This document shows positions 20,190-38,410 of a DNA stretch of 39,070 nt, one piece after another. Origin of the DNA: Kiloniellaceae bacterium. Its GTDB lineage: Bacteria; Pseudomonadota; Alphaproteobacteria; Kiloniellales; J153. Every line of letters starts with the position of its first letter. The stretch's first letter is position 1. The stretch is from NCBI GenBank assembly GCA_021776115.1, contig JAJFGN010000016.1, positions 1 to 39,070 of the forward strand, read 5' to 3'. A program made the translations under genes and the position numbers. Under the pieces are notes generated by a model. It ran no database searches, was not told where the DNA came from, and saw nothing but the letters and a program-made list of their open reading frames with translations.

Positions 20190-21281
20190 CTAACTGCCGG
20201 CGCCTTGAACCATCTGGTGCCCCTTGCCGCCGATCGAGATCTCCCCAACTACCGAGAGGCTTTTCAGATCCACGACCCATATCTTGGGCTTGTCGGCGCT
20301 CGAGACGTAGAGCTTGCCGGCGCCACGAACCGTCGCCAGGTGGAAGGGTTCCGGCGTTAACGCAAGGCTGCGCATGGCGCCCGTGGCCAGATCCACACTC
20401 ACGACCTTCTCCTCGCCGAGCGCGGCCACGTAGAGCGTCTTGCCGTCGTCCGAGAAGTCTATGCCATGCAGGCTCGAGCCGATCGGAATGGTCTTCACAA
20501 CCTTCCGCTCTTGGAGAGACAGGACGGACACCGTGCCATCCTCGACGTTGTTGACATAGAGGGAGGCGCCGTCCTTGGACAGCACGACATGCTCGGGGCT
20601 CGCGCCGGTGACCGCGCTCCATTGGACGGCCCAGCGAGAGGTATCGATCGCGCTGACCGTGCCGTTGCCGGCGTTACTGACATAGACCCGATTGCCATCG
20701 GGGCTAAATGCGCTGTAATTGGGCATCGGCCCTGTGGCAAGCGTCGCCACCACGGCGAATGAGGTCAGATCGATTGCACTGATTCCTCCTTCGTCGGGAA
20801 GGGTGACGACGGCAAACCGCCCGTTCGGGCTGACCGCGACATGATGAACGGCGCCCGGGACGTCGATCCGGCGTACGATCGACCCGTCGTCCGTTCGCAC
20901 GATCGAGACGGTGCTGACGACCGGCCCCGCCTTTTGCGAGGCGGCCGGGGCGCCGCCATGATGTGCGGCATGGTCTTCCTCTGTCACGCCTGTCGGCTTT
21001 TCGGGGGCGGCGCTACCCGGCTCGCGCTTCTCGAAACTGCCGGCGACGAGAAAACGCCCATCCGGCGTACCCGCGAGGCCGTGAACGGCCGCCACACCAC
21101 TTATTGTATCGACGACCTTGTCCTGCGCGACATCGACGACGACGATCTTGCCCTCTCCGCCCAGCGGTATGTACATGAGGGGTTCGGCGAAGACGGGTTG
21201 CATTCCGAACAGGACGGTGACCATACCGGCGTACGCCACGGGTCGAAGAACTTTTGCTGCTTTCACGGTGTATCTCTCCAT
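20190..21281 (-). CDS. Periplasmic YVTN beta-propeller protein
   Basis: A 363-aa secreted protein: signal peptide (MERYTVKAAKVLRPVAYAG to QPVFAEP), then a seven-bladed YVTN/lactonase-like propeller with repeats such as AVSPNGRFAVVTLP, AFSPDGNRVYVSNAGNGTVSAID and VLSKDGASLYVNNVEDGTVSVL. An inserted loop holds DHAAHHGG, a possible metal ligand cluster. An upstream in-frame ATG at 21317, just past the copA stop, is possible but would lengthen the signal peptide oddly. Its place between copA and DUF2933 suggests a role in periplasmic metal handling; no catalytic function can be assigned. Confidence 0.85.
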   Translation of the reverse strand: MERYTVKAAKVLRPVAYAGMVTVLFGMQPVFAEPLMYIPLGGEGKIVVVDVAQDKVVDTISGVAAVHGLAGTPDGRFLVAGSFEKREPGSAAPEKPTGVTEEDHAAHHGGAPAASQKAGPVVSTVSIVRTDDGSIVRRIDVPGAVHHVAVSPNGRFAVVTLPDEGGISAIDLTSFAVVATLATGPMPNYSAFSPDGNRVYVSNAGNGTVSAIDTSRWAVQWSAVTGASPEHVVLSKDGASLYVNNVEDGTVSVLSLQERKVVKTIPIGSSLHGIDFSDDGKTLYVAALGEEKVVSVDLATGAMRSLALTPEPFHLATVRGAGKLYVSSADKPKIWVVDLKSLSVVGEISIGGKGHQMVQGAGS

Positions 21282-21320
21282 TTCACGATGCCTGGGTTGG
21301 TGCGCCATTGCCGACATTCT

Positions 21321-23687
21321 CTAAATCTTGACCGACCGCAGTCGAAGGGCGTTGCTGATCACCGACACGGAAGACAGGCTCATGGCCGCGGCCGCGAAGA
21401 TCGGTGAAATCAGAATACCCAGGAACGGGTAGAGGACGCCCGCCGCCACCGGGACCCCGGCGGCGTTATAAACCAGCGCGAAGAACAGATTCTGTTTGAT
21501 GTTGCGCATGGTCGCCCGCGCCAGGCGGCGCGCCCGCACGATGCCGTTGAGATCGCCCTTGACCAGGGTGAAGCCGGCGCTTTCGATCGCGACATCGGCG
21601 CCGGTGCCCATGGCGATGCCGACATCCGCCTGCGCCAGCGCCGGCGCGTCGTTCACACCGTCGCCGGCCATGGCGACCTCGCGGCCCTCGGCCTGCAGCT
21701 CCTTGATGATCCGCGCCTTGTCCTCGGGCAGCACGTCGGCTCGGATCTCGTCGATCCCGAGCCGCCCGGCCACCGCCTTCGCCGTGCGCTCGTTGTCGCC
21801 GGTCGCCATGATGACGCGGAACCCTTCCGCGTGCAGCGCCTTCAGGGCATCCGGGGTCGTCTCCTTAACCGGATCGGCGACCGAAACGAGGCCGGCGATT
21901 TCGGAACCGATGATGACGAACATCACCGTCTCGCCCTCGTCACGCCGGGCATTGGCGACCTCGGAAAGCGTGCCGCCATCAAGGCCCAGATCGGCGACCA
22001 GCTTTGCGTTGCCGAGCGCCACCCGCTTGCCGTCGATAACGCCCTTCACGCCTTTGCCGGTGACCGCCTCGAACTCCTCCGCCTTGGCGAAAGCGACCCC
22101 ACGTTCCTCGGCCCCGGAGACGATCGCTTCGGCCAGCGGGTGTTCCGAGCCCCGCTCCAGACTCGCGGCCAGGCGCAGCACCTCGGCCTCGTCATGGCCG
22201 GCCTCAGGCAGGACCGCAACGAGCTTCGGTTTGCCGACGGTCAGGGTGCCTGTCTTGTCCACGATCAGCGTGTCGACCTTGGCAAAGCGCTCCAGCGCCT
22301 CGGCATTCTTGATCAGCACGCCGGCTTGCGCGCCCCGGCCGGTCGCCGTCATGATCGACATCGGCGTCGCCAGGCCCAGCGCACACGGGCAGGCAATAAT
22401 CAAGACCGCAACCGCCGACACCAGCCCGTAGGCAAGCGCCGGGGCCGGGCCCCAGATCGCCCAGGCAATGAAGGCCAGGACCGCGACAGCAATCACGGCC
22501 GGCACGAACATGCCGGCCACGGAATCGGCCAGCTTCTGAATCGGCGCGCGGCTGCGCTGCGCGTTCGCGACCATCTCGACAATCTGGCTAAGCATGGTGT
22601 CGGCGCCGACGCGTTTGGCCTCCATCACCAGACTGCCCGTGCCGTTAATCGTGGCGCCGGTGACCTTGTCGCCCTTGACCTTCTCGACCGGAATCGACTC
22701 GCCGGAGATCATCGATTCGTCGATCGACGAGCGGCCCTCGACCACCACGCCATCAACCGGAACCTTATCGCCCGGGCGCACACGCAGCCGGTCGCCGACC
22801 TTGACATCCTCGAGCGGGATTTCCTCCTCCCGCCCGTCCTCGCGGATCACGCGAGCGGTCTTTGCGGCGAGATCCAGAAGCGCCCGGATCGCCGAGCCTG
22901 TGCGCTCGCGCGCGCCAAGCTCCATCACCTGGCCGAGCAGGACCAGAACCACGATCACCGCGCCGGCTTCGAAATAGACTCCAACGTTACCTTCCGCATC
23001 CCGGAAACCGTCCGGGAAAATCCCCGGTGCCAACACAGCGACCACGCTGAAGAGATATGCCGCGCCGACGCCCATGCCGATGAGCGTGAACATGTTTAAG
23101 TTGCGGCTGATCACGGACTTGACGCCGCGCACGAAGAATGGCCAGCCGGCCCATAGAATGACCGGCGTGCCCAGGATAAGTTCGATCCATAGCGTCGCCC
23201 GCTCGCCGAAGATATCGCGGATGAAGCCCAACCCCACATAGGGCCCCATCGTCAGCACTAGCAGCGGAACCGTCAGCACGGCGCCGATCAAAAACCGGCG
23301 CTTGAAATCAACCAACTCAGGATTCGGCCCCTCGTCACCGGTCGGTATCCCCATAGGCTCAAGCGCCATGCCGCAGATCGGGCAATCGCTTGGTGCGTCG
23401 CGCACGATTTCCGGATGCATCGGACAGGTGTATTGGGTGCCCTTGGGTAGGTTTTTATTTTTCTCTTTGTGAGCCCCCGAGAGAAAATGCTCCGGATCGG
23501 CCGCGAACTTGTCGTGACATCCTTGCGAGCAGAAGTGATAGGTCTCGCCCTCATGCGAGTGGCTGGGCTTACCCGCGTCCAGATTTACCGTCATGCCGCA
23601 AACCGGGTCTTTGGCTGTCATAGCATCCGCCACAACGGTTGCATCGCCATGATGATGACTGTGATCGTGATGATCGTGCTTATTCAT
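21321..23687 (-). CDS. copA: Cu+-translocating P1B-type ATPase with YHS and metal-binding N-terminus
   Basis: Inner-membrane pump exporting Cu+ to the periplasm (788 aa). The N-terminus is His-rich ([14 protein letters not shown]). It is followed by a YHS domain ([18 protein letters not shown]) and a heavy-metal-binding domain ([19 protein letters not shown]) in place of the usual CxxC ferredoxin-like domains. The core has the actuator motif SGES, the transport motif [18 protein letters not shown] with the phosphorylated Asp, SEHPLAEAI with the P1B His-Pro, and [11 protein letters not shown]. The last helices ([16 protein letters not shown] and [15 protein letters not shown]) match Cu+ pumps. 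ATG 23687 is chosen over an earlier in-frame ATG at 23723. Confidence 0.96.
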
Positions 23688-23837
23688 TGTCTTACCCCAA
23701 ATTCCCGGTTTCAATAACTGCAATAGCGGTGAGATTTCTTACAATTGAAATGTCCATGAAAGGGCATCTCTTCAATCTGGATCGTCGTATCGACATGGCC
23801 GCCCCGGCAAGCCCAGTTGGAGAGCGCCGATACGCCA

Positions 23838-25316: not shown

Positions 25317-25319
25317 CGC

Positions 25320-26528: not shown

Positions 26529-26706
26529 CGTGCTTCTCCGCGCCGCCCGCCGCCGACGGCGGGTTTACCTGGGGCCTCGGCTCGGCTCGGGAGTCGGCGT
26601 CGCGGTTCTTGCCGTGACCGCCATGCCCGCCGTGACCGAACAGGTGCATGGCAAGCATTCCGCCGCCAAGCAGGATCCAAACCCAATTGTCGAGCACCCA
26701 TTGCAT
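26518..26706 (-). CDS. Small DUF2933-like membrane protein with HGG repeats
   Basis: A 62-aa protein: one hydrophobic segment (MQWVLDNWVWILLGGGMLAM, residues 1-20), then HLFGHGGHGGHGKNRD and a hydrophilic Pro/Ala tail. It looks like the second half of the DUF2933 protein at 19869-20141 (MHLFMHGGHGGHGG). AGGA lies about 8 nt before the ATG. The 3' end overlaps the ackA start by 11 nt. A metal-binding role is inferred from the His repeats only. Confidence 0.8.
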   Translation of the reverse strand: MQWVLDNWVWILLGGGMLAMHLFGHGGHGGHGKNRDADSRAEPRPQVNPPSAAGGAEKHGDL

Positions 26707-26743
26707 ATCGATATCCTTTAATGCCTATGCCGGTCGGGCCGGA

Positions 26744-28549
26744 TCATGACTTGCCTGGCGCGGACGGCTCCAACGAACTTTCCGCGCCATAAAGCAGGCC
26801 GAAGGTTTGCTCGTACGCGCTGTCCCGCGCCTCCCGAGCCTTCTCCACCGCTTCAGAAACCTGGCCGATGAAGTCCCGCTCCTTCTCGAGCAACGGATGA
26901 TCTTGCGGAAGTGGCGCCCGGTTCTTGGCGACGGCATCGGCAAGGATCGAGACCCCACGCATCCAGGGATTGAACGCCTCGGAGAACATGTACCGAGTGG
27001 TCCGCATCGGGTGCAGCCACCTGAGCGATGCCGCGAGCCAGGGATTCGCCGCCGCCTGGACCCAGGGGCTGACGAAGGTCTTGTAGAACGCCTCGTTGGC
27101 CTCCGACACGGTGCGGACCCGCTCGAACGCCTCGTCCTGCGGTGGAATGTCGAGATCCTCGACCTTCCGCTCCTCGAAGCGCACGGCGTACTCCGGCTTG
27201 TGGCAATCGGGATTCCCCGTCGGGTTATCGATCTGCATCTCGTAGAGACCGGGCGCCAGGGCCTCGACCTCGTCTAGGCTTTCAAGAATGGCCCGGTGTT
27301 CGAAACGCGCGACCTTGGCCGATACGAAAATGCCCAAATGGCCAATGTGCGGGTTGGTCAGATAGACGATCCGCTGTCCGGCCTGCTTGAGATCCTCGGT
27401 GTCCTTGTAGACCGCGGGAATCCACCCCAAGGCTTGGTGCGGCGGCGTGATGTTGTCGCCGTAGGAGGCGAAGATAACCAGCGGGTTACGGATGCGGCGC
27501 AGATCGGCCACGCACCCATCGCAGATGCGGAACGTGCCCTGCTCCAGCTTGTTGCCGATGAACAGGTTCTCGACGATCGCGACGATCTCCTCGCGGCTCA
27601 GCGTGTAGAAGCCGTTCCACCAACGTTCGAATTCGAGAAAGCGCTCGCGCTCGCCGTCGACCTTGGCGAAGAGGTTAGCGTATTTCTCCCAGATCGCCTT
27701 CTCGGGCTGCAGGCTTTCGAAGTTCTGCGCCAGCCAGGCACCGTCGAAGCGGCCATCGCCGAGATCGGCCACGAAGTGCGCCAGCCAAGCGCCGCCGAGC
27801 AGGCCGCCGCTGACGCGCATGGGGTTGGCGCCGGACTCTCCGGCCCAGTAGGACAACGGCGAACCGTTGAGGACCGTTGGCCCGACCAGCCCCTCGCAGT
27901 CGGCCGAGAGCAGAGTCACGGCCCAGCCCGCCTGGCAGTTGCCATAAAGGATTGGAGGTGTGCCGGAATGCCGCTGGGCAACTTCCTGGACAAAGCGCCG
28001 TAGCGCGTGATGGACGTCAGCAAGGGTCTGTCCGGGCGCCGGTTCCGGAAAAAAGATCACGAAATAGACCGGATGACCCTCGTGCAACGCCATACCGACC
28101 TCGGACTCGCGCTTGAAACCGCCGATGCCGGGACCGTGCCCGGCGCGCGGGTCGACCACGACGACCGGCGGCTTGTTGGGATCAACGCAATCGTCCCAGC
28201 AATCCTCGCCGACTTCGGTAAACCGCAACAGGGCGTAGTTCACCGGATGCTCGAAGCGGCGCGCGTCGAGGATCGTCTCGTACTTGAAGTCGAGCAGCGG
28301 CGGCTGCCCGGCGCGCTCGTGCTCGAGCATGTTATCGGCGCGCTGGCGTAGGGTGTCCAAGAAGAGTACGGAGCGTTGCCACACATCGAAACCATAGGCC
28401 GAGGCATCTTGGGCCCAGGCTTCTTGCAGCGGTTCGACGGCGACCTGCGTTGGTTGCGCGGCGCGTTTCGGCCCTAGAGTCGGCTTCTTCGAAATCTTGA
28501 TGGGCCGGTTTCGCCTGAGAGGCGCCGCTTTGGGTGCTTTCTGTTTCAC
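26744..28549 (-). CDS. DUF3141 alpha/beta-hydrolase (PHA synthase-like)
   Basis: A protein of about 600 aa. The N-terminal part is basic and Pro/Ala-rich, followed by an alpha/beta-hydrolase core distantly like poly-hydroxyalkanoate synthase: VVVVDPRAGHGPGIGGF, then ILYGNCQAGWAV, where the Cys sits at the nucleophile position (GxCxAG), and NPHIGHLGIF with a likely catalytic His. The frame is open to a GTG at 28603; a second GTG at 28549 has GGGGA about 7 nt upstream, so I chose it, with moderate confidence. DUF3141 genes commonly accompany pta and ackA in alphaproteobacteria. Function unknown; polyester or acyl-CoA chemistry is an inference. Confidence 0.85.
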   Translation of the reverse strand: MKQKAPKAAPLRRNRPIKISKKPTLGPKRAAQPTQVAVEPLQEAWAQDASAYGFDVWQRSVLFLDTLRQRADNMLEHERAGQPPLLDFKYETILDARRFEHPVNYALLRFTEVGEDCWDDCVDPNKPPVVVVDPRAGHGPGIGGFKRESEVGMALHEGHPVYFVIFFPEPAPGQTLADVHHALRRFVQEVAQRHSGTPPILYGNCQAGWAVTLLSADCEGLVGPTVLNGSPLSYWAGESGANPMRVSGGLLGGAWLAHFVADLGDGRFDGAWLAQNFESLQPEKAIWEKYANLFAKVDGERERFLEFERWWNGFYTLSREEIVAIVENLFIGNKLEQGTFRICDGCVADLRRIRNPLVIFASYGDNITPPHQALGWIPAVYKDTEDLKQAGQRIVYLTNPHIGHLGIFVSAKVARFEHRAILESLDEVEALAPGLYEMQIDNPTGNPDCHKPEYAVRFEERKVEDLDIPPQDEAFERVRTVSEANEAFYKTFVSPWVQAAANPWLAASLRWLHPMRTTRYMFSEAFNPWMRGVSILADAVAKNRAPLPQDHPLLEKERDFIGQVSEAVEKAREARDSAYEQTFGLLYGAESSLEPSAPGKS

Positions 28550-28638
28550 TATGTTTCCCCGCTTCGCGGGCCTTTCGCAAATAGGATTGGGAGGCTCAGT
28601 CACTCGCTACATCGTTCCGGCGCGTTTCGGTCGACTTG

Positions 28639-28865: not shown

Positions 28866-29189
28866 CTAGCGGAACTTCGCCGCGAAGAAGTTGTAGAGCG
28901 GCCCTAAAATGAGGGCGACGTACCAACCGTAAGCGAAGGCCTCGATCAGGCCGAGCAAAAAGCTGGTCCAGCTGATCCAGGTGAAGCCCGGTAGTAGCGG
29001 TCCCCAGAACGGATTCATGGCCAGGGTCGGAAACCAAAGGTCGAACAGCACACACAGCACGAAGGTGAGCGCGAGGAATGTTCCTAAACTCATACCCAGG
29101 GCCGCCACCGGGATGCGCGAAACGCCACGCGCCGGAAGCGGCGTACCCGAGTGGCCGTGCGGCTCAAAGGTGGTCGCTGTCTCAGGCAT
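28866..29189 (-). CDS. DUF5676 family membrane protein
   Basis: A 107-aa inner-membrane protein with two hydrophobic segments: VAALGMSLGTFLALTFVLCVLF, split around residues 30-50, and SFLLGLIEAFAYGWYVALILGPLY near the end. The intervening LWFPTLAMNPFWGPLLPGFTWISW and the final NFFAAKF match the DUF5676 pattern, a family found beside YHS and copper ATPase genes. ATG 29189 has GGAG at 7-nt spacing; a longer frame to 29294 only runs over the YHS gene. Start overlaps the YHS gene end by 8 nt. Function unknown. Confidence 0.85.
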   Translation of the reverse strand: MPETATTFEPHGHSGTPLPARGVSRIPVAALGMSLGTFLALTFVLCVLFDLWFPTLAMNPFWGPLLPGFTWISWTSFLLGLIEAFAYGWYVALILGPLYNFFAAKFR

Positions 29190-29526
29190 GGGAGTGCTCC
29201 AATTTCGGTTGGTTGGGATCGCCACCGCCCACATAGAGGTCGGGCGCGGCCTCGAAGACCTCGCGGCATTCGCGCGAGCAGAAATAATAGACATTGCCGG
29301 CGTAGACGCTGGGTTTTGCCTTTTCGGTCATCACCGTCTTGCCGCAGACCGGATCGGTGTCCTTTTTCGGCGGCACCCAACGGAATTCGGGATCGGCGGC
29401 GTTCCCGGTCTTGCTCTCGGTCTGGCCCTTGTCTTGACCGTGCCCCATGACGTGCGCGCCGCAGCCGAAGCGCATCATCAGAAAGATGAGCCCCGCCCAA
29501 AGCGCAAAATAGAGTAACGCTTCCAT
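29182..29526 (-). CDS. YHS-domain membrane-anchored protein
   Basis: A 114-aa protein: N-terminal membrane helix (MEALLYFALWAGLIFLMM), a short His/Gly linker (GCGAHVMGHG), then a YHS domain (DTDPVCGKTVMTEKAKPS, YYFCSRECREVF). The three Cys of the YHS domain are probable metal ligands; the same domain occurs in the island's CopA. A strong GGGAGG stands 5 nt before the ATG. A role as a membrane-tethered metal donor to CopA is an inference from the shared domain and operon. Confidence 0.88.
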   Translation of the reverse strand: MEALLYFALWAGLIFLMMRFGCGAHVMGHGQDKGQTESKTGNAADPEFRWVPPKKDTDPVCGKTVMTEKAKPSVYAGNVYYFCSRECREVFEAAPDLYVGGGDPNQPKLEHSHA

Positions 29527-29646: not shown

Positions 29647-30363
29647 CTACTCGGCTTGCTGCATCCGGCCGCTGTGCCGGTCGACCTTGAATCGCTGCAC
29701 CAGGGATCCGTCCTGGGTCACGATGTCGGCGGTGACAGTGTCATCGTCGGTTTCGGTCACGTCACCGACCTTGAGGCGTTTGTTGCCACGCCAGGTGAGG
29801 TTGCCCTCGATCCGGGCGCGCACGTCGTCGGCCGAAAGATCCAAATCCGACCTGGCGGCCGGGCCCATGCTATAGCCGGGACCCATCATACCAGGCCCCA
29901 TGCCATAGCCTTGGCCGGGCCCCATACCATAGCCGGGCCCCATCATACCGGGCCCCATGCCATAGCCCTGGCCGTGTCCCATGCCGTAGCCTTGGCCGGG
30001 CCCCATGCCATAACCGGGGCCCATCATGCCGTGCCCCATGCCGTAACCCTGACCTGGGCCGTAGCCTTTGCCGGGCCCCATCCCATAGCAGGGTCCTGGC
30101 CCGTAGCCTTGGCCGGGTCCCATGCCATAACCGGGTCCCGGCCCATAACCCTGGCCCGACCCCATCATGCCAGAGCCGGGCCGTCCCTGCGCGCCGCGAC
30201 CGCCGCCCATGTGGGCGAGTTGGACTTGCGGCGCAGCACCGAGTACCGGCCCCTTATCCATGGCACCGCTGTACTTGCTGTCGGCTAAACCCGGCGCGGC
30301 GGCGATTGCCAGCGCACCCACGCCGGCCAAAGTGGCCAACGTCAACTTGCGAAGCTGTCTCAT
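29647..30363 (-). CDS. Secreted Gly/Met/Tyr-repeat protein with PepSY-like C-terminus
   Basis: A 238-aa periplasmic or surface protein. Signal peptide MRQLRKLTLATLAGVGALAI to about residue 28; then from about 60 to 165 tandem GYGMGPGQ / GHGMMGPG units with many Met and His, one Cys (GPCYG); then a folded domain (about 170-238) with ADDVRARIEGNLTWRGNKRLKVG and TADIVTQDGSLVQRFKVDR, which looks PepSY-like. The Met-His repeats suit Cu+ binding. It is the first gene of the minus-strand island, divergent from the two-component system, and so the likely prime target of that regulator. Repeat number may vary between strains. Confidence 0.8.
   Translation of the reverse strand: MRQLRKLTLATLAGVGALAIAAAPGLADSKYSGAMDKGPVLGAAPQVQLAHMGGGRGAQGRPGSGMMGSGQGYGPGPGYGMGPGQGYGPGPCYGMGPGKGYGPGQGYGMGHGMMGPGYGMGPGQGYGMGHGQGYGMGPGMMGPGYGMGPGQGYGMGPGMMGPGYSMGPAARSDLDLSADDVRARIEGNLTWRGNKRLKVGDVTETDDDTVTADIVTQDGSLVQRFKVDRHSGRMQQAE
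29866..30180. repeat. In-gene tandem repeats coding for GYGMGPG units
   Basis: About 315 nt of degenerate repeats built from the 18-21-nt unit coding GYGMGPG, with interspersed GMMGPG units. All units keep the reading frame, so expansion or contraction would change only repeat number. This is coding, not a CRISPR array. Confidence 0.8.
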
Positions 30364-30448: not shown

Positions 30449-30491
30449 GTAACGGACCGTCACGAGCGCCGTTGCGGTTACAGTCCGTTAC
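30449..30491. promoter_or_regulatory. Candidate response-regulator operator
   Basis: GTAACGGAC (30449-30457) and its exact complement GTCCGTTAC (30483-30491) form an inverted pair. Within the right arm GTTAC repeats at 30477 and 30487, a 10-bp direct period typical of OmpR-family half-sites. It lies 48 nt upstream of the regulator start and 86 nt from the divergent gene. Confidence 0.5.
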
Positions 30492-30538
30492 AATGTTTTC
30501 CGGTGCCGGCGGCGGCGGCGGACGATAGATTGGGATTT

Positions 30539-31267
30539 ATGAACACGCCGAACATCGCAAACCTGGGTCACGTGCTGGTGGTTGACGACGACCGTGAGAT
30601 ACGCGATCTCTTGGGACGATTTCTCACCAAGCACGGATACCGGGTCACAACGGTGCCGGACGGCAAGGAAATGCGCCGGGCGATAGCCGACTGGCATATA
30701 GATCTGGTTGTCCTGGATTTGATGCTGCCCGGCGAGGACGGCCTGTCGCTGTGCCGGGACCTGCGGGCGAAATCGCAGATTCCTGTCATCATGCTGACGA
30801 TGATGGGCGAGGAAACGGACCGGATCATCGGCCTGGAAATGGGCGCCGACGATTATCTTCCCAAGCCGTTCAACCCGCGTGAGCTTCTGGCGCGCATGAA
30901 AGCGGTCCTGCGGCGTGCCCGGGGCGCGCCCGCCGTTCCGGCGACCGCGAGGCGGACAATCTTGGGTTTCGCCGGCTGGAAGCTGGATATCGGGCTGCGC
31001 CGCCTCGAATCTCCTCAAGGCCTGATCGTCGATTTGAGCGCAGGCGAGTTCGATCTGCTGGTTGCCTTTGTCGAGCACCCACAAAGGGTGCTCAACAGAG
31101 ACCAACTCCTGGACCTCACCCATGGCCGTGCCGAAGCCCCTTTCGACCGCAGCATCGACATGCAGATAAGCCGCCTTCGGCGCAAGATCGAGGTCGACCA
31201 CAAGCAGCCGGAATTGATCAAGACTGTCCGCGGTGGCGGCTATGTACTAACAGTGGACGTGACCTAA
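30539..31267 (+). CDS. OmpR-family response regulator
   Basis: A 242-aa two-component regulator. Receiver domain (residues 10-125): acidic pocket VVDDDRE (16-18), phospho-acceptor Asp60 in VVLDLMLPG, Thr87 and Lys109 (DYLPKPFNP). The C-terminal winged helix (about 145-240) has LSAGEFDLLVAFVEHP and SIDMQISRLRRKIE, ending in IKTVRGGGYVL. ATG 30539 is preferred over a GTG at 30503 because the receiver begins about 10 residues later. The sensor kinase follows after 1 nt. It is divergent from the metal island, with paired repeats between, so it probably controls both directions. Confidence 0.93.
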   Translation: MNTPNIANLGHVLVVDDDREIRDLLGRFLTKHGYRVTTVPDGKEMRRAIADWHIDLVVLDLMLPGEDGLSLCRDLRAKSQIPVIMLTMMGEETDRIIGLEMGADDYLPKPFNPRELLARMKAVLRRARGAPAVPATARRTILGFAGWKLDIGLRRLESPQGLIVDLSAGEFDLLVAFVEHPQRVLNRDQLLDLTHGRAEAPFDRSIDMQISRLRRKIEVDHKQPELIKTVRGGGYVLTVDVT

Positions 31268-31268
31268 A

Positions 31269-32609
31269 ATGAAGCGCTGGATACCTGACACTATCGCCGC
31301 TCGTACCTTGCTGGTGCTGTTTTTCGGGCTCACGCTCTCGCACGCAATCAGCGTCGGATTGTACATCACCGACCGGACCAGCGCCTTGATGTTTAGCGGT
31401 GGCGAACACATCGGCGAGCGCATCGCTACCATCGACCGACTCATTCGAAATTCGTCCGAAGCGGAACGTCAGCGCCTCGTCGAGCTTGCCGACGGCCCTA
31501 GACTCGGCGTCATCCGGACGCCGGATAGCGCCATCGGCGATCAATCGGCGGACGATTGGCGGACCAACGTTCTCCGCGATGCCCTGACCACGCACCTAAG
31601 TCACGATGGCGACCGCAATTTCCGGCTACATCACATGGGGGCGATGATGCCCGGGCACATGGGCAGCGCGGCCGGCGAAACAATGATGGTTTCCATGCCC
31701 TTGCCGGATAAGACCTGGCTGAACTTCACCGCCCCGATCGAGACGCCGGAGCCGTTCTGGTCGCTCCGCTTCGGCCTGTCCATGGCGGTGATGCTCGCGG
31801 CGGTCGCCATACTCTCCACCTTGGTCGTGCGCCATCTGACCAAACCACTGGCTGTTTTCGCCCGCGCCGCGCAACGGCTGGGCGTCGACGTCAAGGCGCC
31901 GCCGTTGCCGGAGAGCGGTCCAGAAGAAGTCCGCCAGGCGACGCGCGCCTTCAACGAAATGCAGGAGCGAATTCGCCGTTTTGTCGTGGACCGCACGCAG
32001 ATGATCGCCGCGATCTCGCACGATCTGGGCACACCGATCACACGTTTGCGCTTGCGCGCGGAATTCGTCGATGACGAGGAGCAACGGAGAAAAATGCTCG
32101 CCGATCTCGACGACATGGAGAAAATGGTCTTCTCCGCGCTGTCGTTCGCGCGTGATGATGCGGCGCACGAACCGCAGGTGACAGTAGATTTTCGAACGTT
32201 GCTGCAACGGGTCTGCGACGACACCATCGACGCCGGGCATCCGGTTACCCTCGACGCTGGCGAAGACGCAGTGCCTTACGACTGCCGGCCGGTGGCACTA
32301 CGCCGCGCCTTGAACAACGTCATTGACAATGCCATCAAGTACGGGGGTCAAGCCCGCGTCTCATTGGCGGAAAGTCCGAACGATATTCTCCTCACAATCG
32401 ACGATGACGGTCCAGGTATACCGGACGATCGCCGGGAAGATGTGTTCAAGCCGTTTCACCGGCTTGAACAATCGCGTAGCCGGGAAACCGGCGGTACGGG
32501 CCTCGGCCTGACCGTCGCGCGCACCATCGTCCGCGCCCACGGCGGCGATATCACGCTATCCAATCGAGACGCTGGCGGGCTCCGGGTAGAAATACATCTG
32601 CCGCGCTGA
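31269..32609 (+). CDS. Sensor histidine kinase (EnvZ-like) with His/Met-rich sensor loop
   Basis: Inner-membrane kinase of 446 aa. Two membrane helices (about 12-33 and 167-187) flank a periplasmic sensor of about 130 residues. HAMP (about 188-240) and HisKA follow with His251 in ISHDLGTPITRLRLR, then an ATPase domain with NVIDNAIKYG, DDDGPGIPDD and GGTGLGLTVARTI. The sensor contains FRLHHMGAMMPGHMG (118-132), four Met and three His in 15 residues, which would suit Cu or Ag ligation. It partners the regulator before it. The ligand is inferred from this motif and from the copper genes alongside. Confidence 0.92.
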   Translation: MKRWIPDTIAARTLLVLFFGLTLSHAISVGLYITDRTSALMFSGGEHIGERIATIDRLIRNSSEAERQRLVELADGPRLGVIRTPDSAIGDQSADDWRTNVLRDALTTHLSHDGDRNFRLHHMGAMMPGHMGSAAGETMMVSMPLPDKTWLNFTAPIETPEPFWSLRFGLSMAVMLAAVAILSTLVVRHLTKPLAVFARAAQRLGVDVKAPPLPESGPEEVRQATRAFNEMQERIRRFVVDRTQMIAAISHDLGTPITRLRLRAEFVDDEEQRRKMLADLDDMEKMVFSALSFARDDAAHEPQVTVDFRTLLQRVCDDTIDAGHPVTLDAGEDAVPYDCRPVALRRALNNVIDNAIKYGGQARVSLAESPNDILLTIDDDGPGIPDDRREDVFKPFHRLEQSRSRETGGTGLGLTVARTIVRAHGGDITLSNRDAGGLRVEIHLPR

Positions 32610-32665: not shown

Positions 32666-32723
32666 TTGATCCAAATCCCAATTGATCCAGGTCAAGGAAA
32701 AACATCAGCTCGTGCGGTAGGTT
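32666..32723 (+). promoter_or_regulatory. Anaerobox (Fnr/FixK site) and class II-type promoter
   Basis: TTGATCCAGGTCAA (32682-32695) fits the alphaproteobacterial Fnr/FixK consensus TTGAT-N4-(A/G)TCAA. A degenerate second copy, TTGATCCAAATCCC, lies 16 bp upstream (32666-32679). A -10-like TAGGTT at 32718-32723 places the strong box near -41, the class II activator position. It precedes the small secreted Cys protein and the thiol-redox operon. Confidence 0.65.
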
Positions 32724-32770
32724 ACGATCCCTCTCAGGCAAGTTGGGAATTCTGGGTGACTCGGCACGCC

Positions 32771-33127
32771 ATGAGTACAAGTAGAAAAAACCTTCGATCG
32801 ACTGCCGGTCAAAGCACGACAGCTTGGCTCGCGTGCATAGCCCTCGTTCTGGGAACCCTCCTTTTCGCCTTTCACCTGCCTGCGGCTTGCGCCCCGGGGA
32901 TGGACTGTACCGTGGCCGCCGCTTTCGATAGTGACAACACGGGTGGCCAAGATCAGGCGCCTCACGATTCGGACTGTGCCACCTATGCCGGTTGTTCGAT
33001 AAGTGCCACGGTCGCCAGCCGTTCTGTCATCGCTACGCAAGGCGGGCCAGCCACAAGGCCGGCGACAAAGCTTCGGCTGGTGAGCCTTGCGAGCCGTCCT
33101 CCCGCTCCCCCTCCAGAATCCATCTAG
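32771..33127 (+). CDS. Small secreted Cys-containing protein, unknown
   Basis: A 118-aa protein with an N-terminal hydrophobic signal segment (TAWLACIALVLGTLLFAFHLP), then a region with four Cys (ACAPGMDCTVAA and DCATYAGCS) and a Pro/Arg tail. The layout recalls small DUF2946-like secreted proteins in copper loci, but the match is loose. The frame is open to 32666 (ATG), across the anaerobox, so I chose the internal ATG at 32771. It is the first gene after the anaerobox. Function unknown. Confidence 0.55.
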   Translation: MSTSRKNLRSTAGQSTTAWLACIALVLGTLLFAFHLPAACAPGMDCTVAAAFDSDNTGGQDQAPHDSDCATYAGCSISATVASRSVIATQGGPATRPATKLRLVSLASRPPAPPPESI

Positions 33128-33357
33128 CACCGGCCCTGACGCGGCGAGCGAATCACGCTCGAGTTGCCGCCAACAAATTGGGCATGCCGAACTAGACACC
33201 TGAGGTTCCCCTCGGATCTTTGCTTCGGTAGTTTACCGCTTCCGTAACAATCGTAGCGGTGCCATGCCCCCGCCCGCGAAACGCTGTCATGTGCGGGATG
33301 TTGATTTTGCCTCGGCATGACGAGGCGCCGACGAGATGAAGCCCAGGAGAACCGTCC

Positions 33358-33993
33358 ATGTCCGATGGAGCAGCACAGGCAACGCCGAAGGAGCCCAATG
33401 GCGCGCTCCGTTCGCCGCGCGGCGAGGCTCGAGAAATCAAGGACGTTAAGCAGCATGTCATTTTTATTTTGCCGACGCTCATCTTCGCGATTTTCGCGGG
33501 ATACTTCCTTTGGGGTTTGAATCCTGAGCGGAATCCCAAGGATATCCCTTCCGTGTTGATCGGCAAACAGGTCCCGGAATTCGATCTGTCGCCCGTAGAG
33601 GGGCGCAGTTTGGGATTGTCCGCCAGCGATTTGAAGGGCGAGGTTTCCCTGGTCAACGTCTTTGCTTCCTGGTGTACGGAATGCCGCCGTGAACATCCCC
33701 TGTTCATGAGATTGAGTGCGAACAATATCGTTCCAATCCATGGCCTCAACTATAAGGACAAACCCGAAGACGCGCAGGGTTGGCTTGACGAGCTCGGCGA
33801 TCCCTACATCCGAACCGGGGCCGACCTCGATGGACGGGTAGGCATCGAATTCGGCGTCTACGGCGTACCCGAGACCTTCGTCATCGATAAGGCTGGAACG
33901 ATCGCCTATAAGCACATCGGCGCCGTGACCGAGCGCGTGCTCAAGGAAAAGATCTTGCCTCTCGTCAAAGATCTTCGGAAGGCAACGCCATGA
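33358..33993 (+). CDS. CcmG/DsbE/ResA-like membrane-anchored thioredoxin
   Basis: Periplasmic thiol-disulfide oxidoreductase of 211 aa. A cytoplasmic N-terminus of about 32 residues precedes one membrane anchor (HVIFILPTLIFAIFAGYFLWG). The thioredoxin fold follows with active-site WCTEC (Cys106, Cys109) in VNVFASWCTECRREHP and the cis-Pro in YGVPETFVI (Pro171). CcmG proteins usually have WCxPC; the Glu variant would alter redox potential. AGGAG stands before the ATG. It is followed by a propeller-cytochrome and two CcdA-type proteins, so it may reduce apocytochrome c heme-binding Cys or the DUF1573 Cys pairs. Confidence 0.9.
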   Translation: MSDGAAQATPKEPNGALRSPRGEAREIKDVKQHVIFILPTLIFAIFAGYFLWGLNPERNPKDIPSVLIGKQVPEFDLSPVEGRSLGLSASDLKGEVSLVNVFASWCTECRREHPLFMRLSANNIVPIHGLNYKDKPEDAQGWLDELGDPYIRTGADLDGRVGIEFGVYGVPETFVIDKAGTIAYKHIGAVTERVLKEKILPLVKDLRKATP

Positions 33994-34039
33994 GCGTACT
34001 GGCCGGTCCTGACCGTTCACTCATTGTGCGGAGGGCGCC

Positions 34040-35257
34040 GTGAGGATTTGGAGGGGAGCGCTCGTCGTTGTTCTTTGGGTAGCGGCCGTCAGCAATCTGA
34101 CGCCGTTGCCGGCCTTTGCGAGCGGCACGGATTCGCTTGACGACATTTCGCATATCCACGCCATATCCGTAGACAAGACCGATACGCAAAGACTCTATTT
34201 GGCGACGCACAAGGGCCTGTTTCTTGTCGCACCAAGCGGTGCTCTGCAGCATGTTTCCGAGGAGCCGGACGATCTGATGGGATTCGCCGCTCACCCGACC
34301 GACCCGCAAGTTTTCTACGCCAGTGGTCATCCCGCACAGGGCGGGAACCTCGGCGTTATACGTTCCAACGACGGTGGCGAGACCTGGTCCCAATGGGCCA
34401 GAGGTGCCGGCGGTCCCGTCGACTTCCATACTATGGACGTAAGCAAGGCCGACCCCAATGTGATCTACGGGCTCCACAACGGAATTCAGATCAGCCGAGA
34501 CGCCGGACGATCCTGGGAAATCGCGGGACAGCCCCCTGCGGAAGTTTTCGACCTCGCTGCTTCGGCCCGCGATGTCGATATGGTCTATGCCGCAACCCGT
34601 GCCGGGCTTTTCCTGAGCCGCGATGGAGGCCGCACCTGGACAAACACCTATATGCCTCAGCGCCCCGTGACGATGGTCCATACCTCGGCGGACGGAAATC
34701 TTTACGCCTTTGTCTATGGAGTCGGCTTGGTTGCGGCTTCCGAACCGGTTCTCGCGTGGCAAACAGTATCGGGTGATTTTCTAGATCGGTTCTTGCTTGA
34801 TATCGCCGTCGACCCCGCCAATTCAGCCCATCTCTATGCTGTAACCGACACCGGAGCCATGGTGACCAGCAAGGACGGCGGCAAGACGTGGATCAGCTTC
34901 GAAGGCAGCAATTCAAACACTACCGAAGTTACCAGCCGAGGCCAGCAACTCTTTGAGGCGAACTGTCAGGCCTGTCATGGCGTGCGCGGTGTCGGCGAGA
35001 ATCCAAACGATATGTACGCCAAGAACGAATACGGCTTTGTTGCGCCGCCGCTGAACGACAAGGCTCATGCCTGGCACCACCCCGATTCCGGCATCGCGGA
35101 TACGATCCTCAACGGCTCGCCCCGCAACGAAAGGATGCGTCCCTGGCGGGAGACCCTGACCCAAGAAGATGCTCAGGCCCTGATCGCTTATATCAAAAGC
35201 CTGTGGAGTTTTCGCAGCCTTGCATGCCAGGGCGTCCGCCACATGAGGTGCATGTGA
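34040..35257 (+). CDS. BNR/sortilin-type propeller fused to cytochrome c
   Basis: A 405-aa secreted protein. Signal peptide (about 1-28), then a beta-propeller of the F510_1955 type (about 35-290) with Asp-box repeats SNDGGETW (109), SRDAGRSW (152), SRDGGRTW (193) and SKDGGKTW (277). A cytochrome c domain follows with CQACH (309-313) and a probable axial Met366, and a tail SLACQGVRHMRCM. The start is GTG with GGAGG 5 nt upstream. The propeller family is called glycosyl hydrolase-like in databases but has no proven activity. The fusion suggests electron transfer tied to a bound ligand or metal. It is cotranscribed with the thioredoxin before and ccdA after. Confidence 0.88.
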   Translation: MRIWRGALVVVLWVAAVSNLTPLPAFASGTDSLDDISHIHAISVDKTDTQRLYLATHKGLFLVAPSGALQHVSEEPDDLMGFAAHPTDPQVFYASGHPAQGGNLGVIRSNDGGETWSQWARGAGGPVDFHTMDVSKADPNVIYGLHNGIQISRDAGRSWEIAGQPPAEVFDLAASARDVDMVYAATRAGLFLSRDGGRTWTNTYMPQRPVTMVHTSADGNLYAFVYGVGLVAASEPVLAWQTVSGDFLDRFLLDIAVDPANSAHLYAVTDTGAMVTSKDGGKTWISFEGSNSNTTEVTSRGQQLFEANCQACHGVRGVGENPNDMYAKNEYGFVAPPLNDKAHAWHHPDSGIADTILNGSPRNERMRPWRETLTQEDAQALIAYIKSLWSFRSLACQGVRHMRCM

Positions 35258-35336
35258 TGTGCGCACCCACACGTCTACAACCGACCCAACGCTTTCTGAC
35301 TGCGCTCGCATTCACGCGCTTTGAGGAGTTGGCGAA

Positions 35337-36080
35337 ATGCCGGAAATAGCAGGCATAGGGATCCTGACGGCGTTCCTGGCAGGGGTCGTGTCTTTTTTGT
35401 CGCCCTGTGTGCTCCCCCTTGTGCCGGGATACGTATCCTACGTGGCCGGCCGCTCCCTAGAGGAACTGCGGCAGTCGCAAGCGACGCAGCAGCGACTGGC
35501 GGTGCTTGGCCTCAGCGCTGCTTTCGTTCTTGGGTTTTCCAGCGTGTTCGTGGCTTTGGGCGCCAGCGCCTCCGCGGTTGGCCGGCTTTTTATGGCCTAT
35601 CGCTATGAAGCCGGTTACGTCGCCGGCGCCGTCATTATCATCTTTGGGCTCCATATGATGGGGCTATTGCGCATCAACTGGATGAACCGCGACCTGCGTA
35701 TTTTTTCGTCGATTCCAGGCGGCCGCCCCTTTGGCGCCTTCCTGTTGGGAACCGCCTTCGCCTTCGGTTGGACTCCGTGCATAGGTCCGATCCTGGGCGC
35801 CATTCTGACAATCAGCGCCACGACCATGGGCGTTTCCGACGGCGCCGCCCTGCTATCGATCTATTCTATGGGGCTCGCCGTCCCCTTCCTATTGGTCGCA
35901 GCCTTCACCAATCGCTTCATGGCCAACGCGGGCCGATTCCGGCGAATTGGACGGCCGCTCCAAATGGCCGCTGGCAGCATACTGGTTCTGGTTGGAACCC
36001 TTATGGCGACCGGCCATCTGTTTTCCTTCGGTACATGGATGCTGAAAACATTTCCGATTTTCCAGGAGATACAAATCTAG
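35337..36080 (+). CDS. ccdA: CcdA-type cytochrome c biogenesis membrane protein
   Basis: Six-helix inner-membrane protein of 247 aa that passes electrons from cytoplasmic thioredoxin to periplasmic thioredoxin-like proteins. The two redox Cys lie in SPCVLPLVPGYVSYVAG (helix 1) and FGWTPCIGPILGAIL (helix 4), both with the family Pro. GAGGAG stands 9 nt before the ATG. It is followed after 14 nt by a second protein with a CcdA-like membrane domain. Confidence 0.94.
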   Translation: MPEIAGIGILTAFLAGVVSFLSPCVLPLVPGYVSYVAGRSLEELRQSQATQQRLAVLGLSAAFVLGFSSVFVALGASASAVGRLFMAYRYEAGYVAGAVIIIFGLHMMGLLRINWMNRDLRIFSSIPGGRPFGAFLLGTAFAFGWTPCIGPILGAILTISATTMGVSDGAALLSIYSMGLAVPFLLVAAFTNRFMANAGRFRRIGRPLQMAAGSILVLVGTLMATGHLFSFGTWMLKTFPIFQEIQI

Positions 36081-36094
36081 CCGCGGAGACGATT

Positions 36095-37366
36095 GTGAGC
36101 AGGCTTTTCTTTGAATGGCAGTACCGGAAATTCCAGCTATTGGACGCAGCCTGGCGCGTGCCTGCTGTTGTACTTCTGCTTCTCTTGGGGTTTGCGCAGC
36201 CGGCTACGGCCCAGGACACAAAGGCGCCAGACGCTAGTCACATCTTTTTCAGCGCAGGTTGCGCCGATTGCTGGCCCTACACCGAGGACGTGTTGATTCC
36301 GGCGTTGCAGGCGCGCGGCGCCGCGCGCGATCCGCAGATACACGACTACACGGCAGCCGGTGGCCGAAAACGGCTGCTGGAAGTGGCCGACTCCGTCGAG
36401 CTGCCGCGATCGATCGCGGACTCGCTCTACGCCTTCATTCCCACGGCCGAAGGAACCCTGGTCATCCTCGGCCACGTTCCGCCAGCGCTGATCGATGCCG
36501 CCTTGACCTCACCTGACCGGCCATCGCGTCTCGTCCTCTGGCAGCCGGAAATGCATGGCGAGCCCAGCGAGTATCGCCTCTGGGCCTGGACCGGCGAGGT
36601 TCAGACTTTCCCCATCGACACGCCCTTTCAGGAGGCCTTGGCTCAAGCGATCGTTTCCGTGGGGCCCTTGCCGATCGGTCAGGCAAACCTGGCCCAACTT
36701 CTACCCGCGGTGGTCATTACCGGTCTGTTGGATTCGGTTAATCCCTGCGCCTTTGCGGTGATTCTGCTGTTGCTTGCCTTTCTGTTCACCCTGCGAAAGG
36801 CAAGGAGCCAAATTTTGAAGTTGGGGTTCGTCTATATCGGGATGATCTTCCTGGTGTATTTCGCCATCGGACTGGGCCTGCTGGGGACGGTTCGGCTTTC
36901 AGACGATCCCCATTTCGTTGCCCGGCTAGGATCATGGATATTGATCGGATTGGGCGCGATCAACTTGATCGAGTACTACTTCCCGCGGTTTCCAATCAAA
37001 CTGCATATGCCGGCCTTCGCCGGTACCAAGGCCCACGCGCTCATCGGGAAAGCGACTCTGCCGGCAACGATCGGCGCCGGCATCCTGGTTGGCCTGTGCA
37101 CGTTTCCCTGTTCGGGCGGCATCTACGTTTCGGTAATCACCCTCTTGAACGCCAAGACGACGATAGCCTGGGGCGTCAGTTATCTCGCCTTGTACAACGT
37201 CATGTTCGTGCTGCCCCTAATCGGCATTCTCCTCGCAACCGGAAACCGGGTCACGGCGAAAGCCTGGGCGGGCTGGGAACGGCAACACGCACTCGAGATC
37301 AGGCTCTGGTACGGCGTGTCCATGGTGACGCTCGGCGCCATCATGTTGTTGTGGATAATCAGGTGA
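36095..37366 (+). CDS. Thioredoxin-like domain fused to a CcdA/DsbD-type membrane domain
   Basis: A 423-aa protein. N-terminal signal (about 20-40, VPAVVLLLLLGFAQPATA), a periplasmic thioredoxin-like part with FFSAGCADCWPYTE (Cys56, Cys59) and a middle domain (about 80-200). A membrane domain then follows, with NPCAFAVILLLLAFLFTL and LCTFPCSGGIYVSVIT holding the two CcdA-type Pro-Cys sites. This is a DsbD-like arrangement in one chain. The start is GTG 36095 with GGAG 6 nt upstream; the frame is open further back only because it overlaps ccdA. It could reduce a periplasmic client other than the CcmG-like protein. Confidence 0.88.
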   Translation: MSRLFFEWQYRKFQLLDAAWRVPAVVLLLLLGFAQPATAQDTKAPDASHIFFSAGCADCWPYTEDVLIPALQARGAARDPQIHDYTAAGGRKRLLEVADSVELPRSIADSLYAFIPTAEGTLVILGHVPPALIDAALTSPDRPSRLVLWQPEMHGEPSEYRLWAWTGEVQTFPIDTPFQEALAQAIVSVGPLPIGQANLAQLLPAVVITGLLDSVNPCAFAVILLLLAFLFTLRKARSQILKLGFVYIGMIFLVYFAIGLGLLGTVRLSDDPHFVARLGSWILIGLGAINLIEYYFPRFPIKLHMPAFAGTKAHALIGKATLPATIGAGILVGLCTFPCSGGIYVSVITLLNAKTTIAWGVSYLALYNVMFVLPLIGILLATGNRVTAKAWAGWERQHALEIRLWYGVSMVTLGAIMLLWIIR

Positions 37367-37420
37367 AACTCTCGGGAACTCAGGACGCAGACGAACACAT
37401 ACTATGAATGGAGAAGGATC

Positions 37421-37996
37421 ATGGCTAGCAAAACAAACCGAAAGCGGACCTCACCCGGACAGCCCAAGAATAAGTTGCTTCCTCTGGTCTGGGCGGTAGC
37501 CGTGCTGCTGGCAGCCGGCGGTGCTTACTATGTTATAGATACTGCGGCACCATCTGCTCAAGTCGCATTAAATTATGCGCCCGAGGAAATTATTTACGAC
37601 AGGCCGTTCCGCGCCATTCACGAAATGCGGGCTGGGCCGCCGATCCCATTCTTGCCGGCCAGCCAGCCGCAACCGAAAATCTCCGTGCCGAACAGCTACT
37701 TCGATTTCGGCCGCATCGGGGCCAAGGAAGTTGTCAAAACGAAATTCCTGGTTCGCAACGAGGGCAACGCCCCGCTAACCATCAGCCGGGCCTACACGAC
37801 ATGCGGTTGCACGACCGCCGGCTTCACGGCCCGCGTCATTCCCCCCGGCAAAGCGATTTTGGTTACCCTCGTTCTCGATGCCGGTTTTCATGACGTCCGC
37901 GGGCAAACCGTCAAGCGCGGCGTCATCATAGAAAACAATGACCGCAACAGCTCCAAGGCCGAGATCTGGACCCGGGCGGATGTCGGTCAGATATAA
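37421..37996 (+). CDS. DUF1573 protein, membrane-anchored, with CGC motif
   Basis: A 191-aa protein: N-terminal membrane anchor (LLPLVWAVAVLLAAGGAYYV), a linker to about residue 85, then an Ig-like DUF1573 domain with FDFGRIGAKEVVKTKFLVRNEG and the conserved YTTCGCTTA (Cys128, Cys130), and IPPGKA. The CGC pair is typical of the family and could be a metal or thiol-redox site, which is inference. GGAG precedes the ATG. A second DUF1573 gene follows after 27 nt. Confidence 0.88.
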   Translation: MASKTNRKRTSPGQPKNKLLPLVWAVAVLLAAGGAYYVIDTAAPSAQVALNYAPEEIIYDRPFRAIHEMRAGPPIPFLPASQPQPKISVPNSYFDFGRIGAKEVVKTKFLVRNEGNAPLTISRAYTTCGCTTAGFTARVIPPGKAILVTLVLDAGFHDVRGQTVKRGVIIENNDRNSSKAEIWTRADVGQI

Positions 37997-38023
37997 CTAA
38001 GGGCGATACCAAGTGAGGATGAC

Positions 38024-38410
38024 ATGCGGAAAACTATTCCGATTCTCGTAAGCTTGTTGCTGGCCGCCTGCACACCGAGCGTACCCGATATCGATGTCGC
38101 TCTTACCCACGATATGGGTACGGTCGTCAAGGGCGATCTAGCCATCGCCGAGCTTCCCGTGCGGAATCTCGGCGAGGCTTCGCTTACGGTGGAGTCGGTC
38201 AGCACTTCGTGCGGGTGTACAAAAGCAAAATTGACGCCAATGATCGTACCGCCGGGAAGCGAAGCCCGCCTCCTCGTCGAATACAATTCCGCTGCGCACG
38301 AGGAGGACCTCGGGCCGATAAGGCGATCCATCTTTATCTCGTCGGACGATCCCGACGAGCAGGACGTGCAGATCAAGTTCACCGTTGTTGTGGCAGCCGA
38401 ACCAACGTGA
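38024..38410 (+). CDS. DUF1573 lipoprotein with CGC motif
   Basis: A 128-aa protein with a lipoprotein signal (MRKTIPILVSLLLAAC; lipidated Cys16), then a DUF1573 domain: MGTVVKGDLAIAELPVRNLG, TSCGCTKAK (Cys63, Cys65), IVPPGSEARLLVEYNS. It would sit on the periplasmic face of a membrane. It pairs with the anchored DUF1573 protein before it; both keep CGCT. Last gene of the redox operon, with an inverted repeat 25 nt downstream. Confidence 0.88.
   Translation: MRKTIPILVSLLLAACTPSVPDIDVALTHDMGTVVKGDLAIAELPVRNLGEASLTVESVSTSCGCTKAKLTPMIVPPGSEARLLVEYNSAAHEEDLGPIRRSIFISSDDPDEQDVQIKFTVVVAAEPT

Follow-up and report, generated by a model that had tools for sequence, protein, structure and literature searches.

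A conserved gene trio encoding a CopG-like membrane fusion protein and two DUF1573 proteins as a candidate copper-linked thiol-reduction module of the bacterial envelope

The window analyzed here is the whole stretch of 39,070 nucleotides of contig JAJFGN010000016.1 from a Kiloniellaceae bacterium (contig C8; the genome comprises 4.3 Mb and is split into 85 contigs). In it, the plus-strand open reading frames (ORFs) B (CcmG-type thioredoxin), C (propeller-cytochrome), D (CcdA), E (thioredoxin-fold domain fused to a membrane domain), F and G (DUF1573 proteins) were confirmed in that order from 33358 to 38410. An earlier note, made from the sequence alone, had described seven genes in tight order behind an anaerobox. 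This description was largely right for the genes B to G and their families, but not for the anaerobox and not for the first ORF, A, as a conserved gene. The unit shared between genomes is smaller than first described and consists of E, F and G, with B and D added in the two closest relatives. We see roughly an even chance that E-F-G is a laterally shared module for thiol reduction in the cell envelope that is tied to copper handling.

Conservation and distribution of the module

A pattern scan for E, restricted to one genome per species and to close relatives, yielded 25 loci with E relatives of 63-89% identity, which belong to Chloroflexota (18), Alphaproteobacteria (4), Gammaproteobacteria, Deltaproteobacteria and Methylomirabilis (1 each). 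DUF1573 genes were present in 17 of the 25 loci, of which 13 had both types. The order B-D-E-F-G was found in two, L013 (G026:C212) and L014 (G020:C30). The expectation of the earlier note that the genes travel together thus holds for E-F-G, and in these two loci for B-D-E-F-G, but not for A and C. For ORF A, neither Pfam nor NCBIfam gave a family at E<=0.01, and tblastn at E<=1e-4 matched it in none of the 25 related loci; A is therefore not shown to be a conserved gene. For C, the fusion of a propeller to a cytochrome c was confirmed (NF045728 F510_1955, 203.4 compared to a cut-off of 175; cytochrome c domain PF13442). However, tblastn matched C in only three E loci (L016, L030, L035), in each case through the cytochrome part; beyond this part no match was obtained in the 25 loci, and C is missing from L013 and L014. 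Its homologs in G020, G026 and G029 lie in other surroundings (by eye, carboxylase, PLP decarboxylase or methyltransferase genes), and G029 carries C but no E. Based on these findings, C was rejected as a member of the module, and A and C are both placed outside of it.

Strong E matches were obtained in 3 of 58 genomes (its own, G020 and G026), with weak matches to the membrane domain in five more, and none was found in three genomes of the same genus or five of the same family. E was detected in 2 of 385 genomes of a class sample at E<=1e-40 and in 2 of 400 of a Chloroflexota sample at E<=1e-60, the query's own genome being included in both counts, while a search of 72,556 plasmid records gave no match. 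In a tree of 22 E proteins, which does not include L026, L033, L035 and L037, the window forms a clade with L013 and L014 (99/97) that joins two other alphaproteobacterial rows (84/86, not starred) within a mostly Chloroflexota set. This topology points to a likely lateral transfer of the E module between phyla; since the root is a midpoint root, any direction of transfer would be inferred.

The fusion protein E

An alignment of 22 E proteins (the window and 21 of the 25 loci) showed five invariant cysteines, namely C29 and C32 in a CADC motif, C191 in NPC, and C308 and C312 in CTFPC. In the family scans E passed no curated Pfam or NCBIfam cut-off. The N-terminal domain, modelled alone, reached a pLDDT of 91.1 and a pTM of 0.87. 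Its best structural match among 998 chains aligned with VIA-align was CopG (6wis; Z 9.4, 108 residues, rmsd 3.1), followed by a second CopG entry (6wje, Z 9.0). Both entries span model residues 1-128, whereas those ranked below showed Z values from 6.8 (residues 1-92) down to 6.0 and reached only residue 92-96. With 108 residues aligned of the 124-residue chain, the predicted domain comprises the CopG fold including its C-terminal hairpin. For the full-length model CopG again ranked first (Z 8.9), with the next non-CopG entry at 6.4.

On the level of profiles, hhalign of the 22 N-terminal domains with 11 DUF411 proteins from related genomes resulted in an E-value of 8e-5 and a probability of 61, with GHVP placed over GHVP and CxxC over CxCC. 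E showed no match to PF04214 (DUF411) at E<=0.01, a PDB sequence search with the E alignment gave nothing at E<=1, and phmmer with the N-terminal domain returned chance matches only (best 0.82). Since C-x-x-C is invariant in the 22 E rows and CGCC in the 11 DUF411 rows, E lacks the CxCC of CopG. Altogether, neither profile nor motif places E in DUF411, but its predicted fold is CopG-like. It shares with CopG/DUF411 the thioredoxin fold with the C-terminal hairpin, the GHVP motif and a copper neighborhood, and differs in its cysteine motif and in the fused membrane domain. The designation of E as a fusion of thioredoxin and CcdA in the earlier note is correct in outline, although the thioredoxin-like part is N-terminal, most similar to CopG and linked to a membrane part below all curated cut-offs.

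The membrane domain carries C191, C308 and C312 invariantly in the 22 rows and in this respect resembles CcdA with its conserved pair of membrane cysteines. With CcdA, DsbD and ScsB, E has in common the invariant cysteines of its membrane domain and a partner of thioredoxin fold predicted outside the membrane, while it differs by its weak profile similarity (no match to Pfam DsbD_TM at E<=0.01) and its CopG-like outer domain. Distant cousins of the membrane domain were observed in L008 and L009 (G013, G009), where they are fused to a CPHC thioredoxin-like part; the L009 protein showed no Pfam match. A more distant E (43% identity) occurs in L045, L122, L138 and L146 (G273); its contig also contains three DUF1573 domains, each of which has CGC and a histidine.

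The DUF1573 proteins F and G

F and G scored above the PF07610 cut-off (58.4 and 53.7 compared to 26.1 bits) and below that of NF041425, OS_HP2 (58.2 and 50.1 compared to 100), and both keep CGCT, as stated before. The motif count included 31 rows covering the site (16 F and 15 G, one truncated G row dropped). C-x-C was present in all 31, as CGC in 28 and as CSC or CDC in 3, and a histidine was located exactly 29 residues past the first cysteine in every row. The Chloroflexota genome G209, which had no E match in the sample search, contains two CGC DUF1573 domains, neither with this histidine.

In reviews, DUF1573 is counted among the selenoprotein families with a UGC motif (PMC13188914, PMC9312934, available in part). 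Since such selenoprotein forms exist, a redox or metal activity at the CxC site can be argued for. F and G share the DUF1573 domain with this family, but carry cysteine in place of selenocysteine and lie below the NF041425 cut-off; no selenocysteine was found among the 31 readable rows of E-linked genes, which are all CxC. Outside of this set, DUF1573 matches with a single in-frame TGA directly after GC or SC were noticed in L127, L128, L135, L136 and L143 (Chloroflexota). Judged from the codons, these genes likely represent a selenocysteine form, unlike the UGC motif of the reviews.

Copper and cytochrome c maturation genes around E

For the context test, 27 E loci were considered (the 25 loci, L081 and the window, the latter cut to 10 kb upstream of E), of which the 19 with at least 10 kb were used and compared with 40 control stretches, each 20 kb long and taken from one Chloroflexota genome or from three genomes of the order of the window. 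Copper markers, defined as HMA, YHS, CPx-ATPase and multicopper oxidase motifs, were present in 15 of 19 long loci compared to 2 of 40 controls (Fisher p 1.1e-8). As examples, in L081 the genes E-F-G are preceded by that of a Cu-type ATPase comprising HMA and YHS, and Pfam identified heavy-metal ATPases in both L015 and L081, as well as a multicopper oxidase in the former. Together with the copper island of the window, which is conserved in L014, these counts support the copper setting proposed in the earlier note. Two DUF411 genes are located elsewhere in the window genome (C41, C44).

Motifs of ccmF or ccmH occurred in 9 of 19 long loci compared to 0 of 40 controls (p 7e-6). All nine loci are Chloroflexota, while no such motif was found in the six alphaproteobacterial E loci, the window included. 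In L022, E, F, a TlpA-like protein, CcmF and CcmH stand in line (CcmF and CcmH confirmed by Pfam), accompanied by a PCYCGC protein and a cupredoxin. CcmF was present in 23 of 24 E-bearing genomes searched, with no match in G073 (2.3 Mb, completeness not stated). The earlier note had deduced a dedicated system from the missing ccm genes and had named regular ccm genes in the same block as an objection. This argument from absence fails and the objection applies in part, given the nine Chloroflexota loci. Supported is a set separate from the general ccm locus in the window genome, whose ccmF and another CcmG are located at C67:78.6-80.2 kb, away from B.

B and D are well assigned, in agreement with the earlier note. 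B exceeded the TIGR00385 dsbE cut-off (171.9 compared to 123.15 bits), carries WCTEC as its WCxxC motif, matched the DsbE structure 3kh7 by phmmer (1e-40) and is 51% identical to the over-cut-off CcmG on C67. B thus fits the CcmG/DsbE profile as a second copy remote from the ccmF of the genome. D matched DsbD_TM (PF02683, 75.7 compared to 27.1 bits) and CcdA 5vkv (phmmer 1e-39), with both cysteines of SPC/TPC invariant in 4 rows; a second CcdA-like gene is located at C62.

Proposed mechanism and alternative explanations

If E-F-G is an envelope thiol-reduction module, the membrane domain of E would take electrons from cytoplasmic thioredoxin via the NPC and CTFPC cysteines in the manner of CcdA and would hand them to the CxxC of its own CopG-like domain on the outer side of the membrane. 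This domain would keep the CxC/His sites of F, probably membrane-anchored, and of G, a putative lipoprotein, in the reduced state, in which they may bind copper or transfer it. The gene run of the window and its two closest relatives also contains a possible second branch, from CcdA (D) to the CcmG-type thioredoxin (B). The two parallel conduits of the earlier note are therefore supported as candidates, D with B and E with its own outer domain. The likely purpose would be to keep copper- and heme-binding cysteines reduced under high copper or during the building of cuproproteins and cytochromes. Related functions have been described: CopG is characterized as a thioredoxin-like Cu-thiol oxidoreductase that binds a copper cluster (PMC7558416, PMC8456105), Scs proteins protect against copper stress (PMC5403849, available in part), and in copper delivery to cytochrome oxidase by TlpA, ScoI and PCuAC thiol reduction precedes copper loading (PMC7558416, in its accessible part), as proposed here. 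As a difference to the latter, no Sco or PCuAC family was found among the scanned proteins, which represent some of the proteins of the window and the loci. A literature search gave nothing that joins CcdA with DUF1573, CopG with DUF411, or CcdA with Chloroflexota and cytochrome c maturation.

Several observations weigh against this reading. The CopG match came from a second look with VIA-align and not from the Foldseek ranking, where the N-terminal domain had no match at E<=0.001 and CopG was absent from the top 50 matches listed. Besides CxCC, the SCH and paired-Met stretches that DUF411 proteins conserve are missing from E, and because of these missing elements E need not bind copper. Its membrane domain is poorly modelled and matched CcdA weakly (hhalign probability 11, E 0.0028), and no DUF1573 gene was seen in 8 of the 25 E loci, some of which have short flanks. 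Regarding the context, four long loci (L019, L021, L029, L036) carry no copper marker, and among the 8 loci too short for the test a copper motif was present in L013 and in none of the other 7; ccm motifs were absent from all 8. Since the motifs were picked after the loci had been looked at, and since the loci are not independent (L024, L026 and L027 are near relatives), the context tests overstate the case. Finally, CopG has been proposed to oxidize Cu(I) (PMC7558416), and its homolog CutG is not required for CutO, according to the accessible parts of PMC7558416 and PMC8456105.

The direction of the CopG reaction also bears on a variant in which E is a membrane copper reductase, whose CopG-like domain, driven by electrons from the cytoplasm, would reduce Cu(II) to Cu(I) at the outer face and hand it to the CxC-His sites of F and G as chaperones, as part of a cuproprotein and cytochrome assembly line moved between Chloroflexota and Alphaproteobacteria. 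Because the proposed CopG direction is the oxidation of Cu(I), at least in the accessible text, this variant has lower odds and appears doubtful. Somewhat unlikely is a role of E-F-G as an accessory of cytochrome c maturation, with E feeding apocytochrome c reducers of the CcmG/CcmH type and the copper genes nearby on account of the same respiratory chain. The ccm motifs in nine long loci, the gene order in L022, the widespread CcmF in E-bearing genomes and the nature of B as a true CcmG-type protein would fit this explanation, while the restriction of the motifs to Chloroflexota, the separate CcmF and CcmG of the window genome, and the closeness of the outer domain to CopG and not to CcmG speak against it.

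E could also be a metal permease of the LysE superfamily, similar to ArsG, whose cysteines bind the exported metal, with the thioredoxin-like domain as outer acceptor and F and G as metal sponges. The best HMM matches of the membrane domain are indeed permease-like, with ArsG at E 0.0065 for the window and 2.2e-4 for L022 and SfLAP at E 0.0019, and they count against thiol reduction as well. All of them are below the cut-offs, and these permease-like families belong to the same superfamily as CcdA. The copper context would suit a permease, but the placement of the invariant NPC and CTFPC cysteines recalls the SPC/TPC of the CcdA protein D, and a thioredoxin fold with CxxC forms the outer domain, which makes a permease improbable. 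The circuit of the earlier note, in which the propeller-cytochrome C serves as electron exit or sensor of one periplasmic system, is very hard to maintain. In the window, C lies between B and D in the same orientation, and each of the three strongly E-positive genomes of the order searched (G000, G020, G026) contains a full-length C homolog somewhere, but the E loci match nothing of C beyond its cytochrome part, and its homologs stand elsewhere, in G029 without E. Thiol reduction by E-F-G remains our preferred explanation.

Gene positions and neighboring features

The positions of all features are given in Table 1. The probable start of E is a GTG preceded by cggaga, 14 bases past the stop of D (by eye). 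The two-component system encoded nearby is the probable regulator of the island. Exact copies of the pattern GTTACNNNCCGTTACAAT precede the regulator gene in both the window (30477) and L014, and L013 has a copy with two mismatches. Since the pattern was drawn from the same sequences, the exact matches are no independent test. With up to 3 mismatches allowed, a single match as in the window is not unusual (26 of 100 shuffles); for the three matches in L014, the count was 0 of 100 shuffles. A looser copy is located at 33232, before B. A link of the box to the operon is a suggestion. The anaerobox of the earlier note, TTGATCCAGGTCAA (32682-32695), contains one mismatch, and with 0.50 such sites expected and at least one in 43 of 100 shuffles it was dismissed as chance level.

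Table 1. Features of the window, with strand and basis of assignment.
Feature	Position	Strand	Basis
YncE-like beta-propeller	20190..21317	-	50% identical in L014
YHS-HMBD heavy-metal P-type ATPase	21321..23723	-	PF00122, PF19335, PF04945; CPC motif
Small protein conserved in L014	28866..29294	-	64% identical over 111 residues
Small protein with YHS-like DPVCGK motif	29182..29526	-	62% identical to L014 protein
Met/Gly-rich secreted-looking protein	29647..30363	-	C-terminal 54 residues 63% identical in L014
Candidate regulator box GTTACAGTCCGTTACAAT	30477..30494	+	like boxes before regulator gene in L014, L013; suggestive
OmpR-type response regulator (ORF possibly from 30503)	30545..31267	+	PF00072, PF00486; 75% identical to L013, L014 regulator
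Sensor histidine kinase	31269..32609	+	HAMP, HisKA, HATPase_c; 57-58% identical to L013, L014
A, small secreted-looking Cys ORF	32774..33127	+	no Pfam/NCBIfam family; no homolog in E loci
B, second CcmG/DsbE of the genome, WCTEC	33358..33993	+	TIGR00385 over cut-off; phmmer to 3kh7
C, F510_1955 propeller fused to cytochrome c	34040..35257	+	NF045728, PF13442
D, CcdA	35337..36080	+	PF02683; phmmer to 5vkv
E, signal-peptide-like start, CopG-like thioredoxin-fold domain (CADC), CcdA/LysE-like membrane domain (NPC, CTFPC)	36095..37366	+	22-row alignment; N-domain model
E, N-terminal CopG-like domain, modelled alone	36236..36676	+	model, VIA-align, hhalign
E, CcdA/LysE-like membrane domain	36668..37363	+	alignments; weak hhalign to CcdA; sub-threshold SfLAP, ArsG matches
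F, DUF1573 protein, N-terminal hydrophobic stretch (by eye), CGCT and His at +29	37421..37996	+	PF07610; motif count
G, DUF1573 protein, lipobox-like LLAAC (by eye), CGCT and His at +29	38024..38410	+	PF07610; motif count

The region from the metal ATPase to the regulator genes includes, on the minus strand (24315-28603), genes for a phosphate acyltransferase, an acetate kinase and a DUF3141 protein. In other E loci, further small genes were observed. Family c5 (RPCC...DCNHG) was rejected as a part of the system, since it occurs in 10 E loci, but among 55 relatives only in G020, and not in the window genome. Its members (RPCC-N...DCNHG) are found at L014:6617-7501 and in nine other E loci, the one in L022 matching neither Pfam nor NCBIfam. 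Small membrane ORFs with ACCAH(H/R)xTD, mostly directly upstream of E, occur in L015, L016, L018, L020, L022, L026, L027, L029 and L031 (no family match for that of L022), and a small C-x-C ... C-x-C protein (cluster c12) lies near E in L016, L021, L023, L024, L026, L027 and L031.

Implications

If the proposed function of E-F-G is true, it would provide a testable role for CxC-bearing DUF1573 proteins, a name that is scarce in the searched literature. Furthermore, a CopG-like domain would be tied to a dedicated membrane electron supply, while the accounts of CopG name no electron source in their accessible parts (PMC7558416, PMC8456105). Altogether, the trio points to a redox-metal module that may be common to Chloroflexota and Pseudomonadota.

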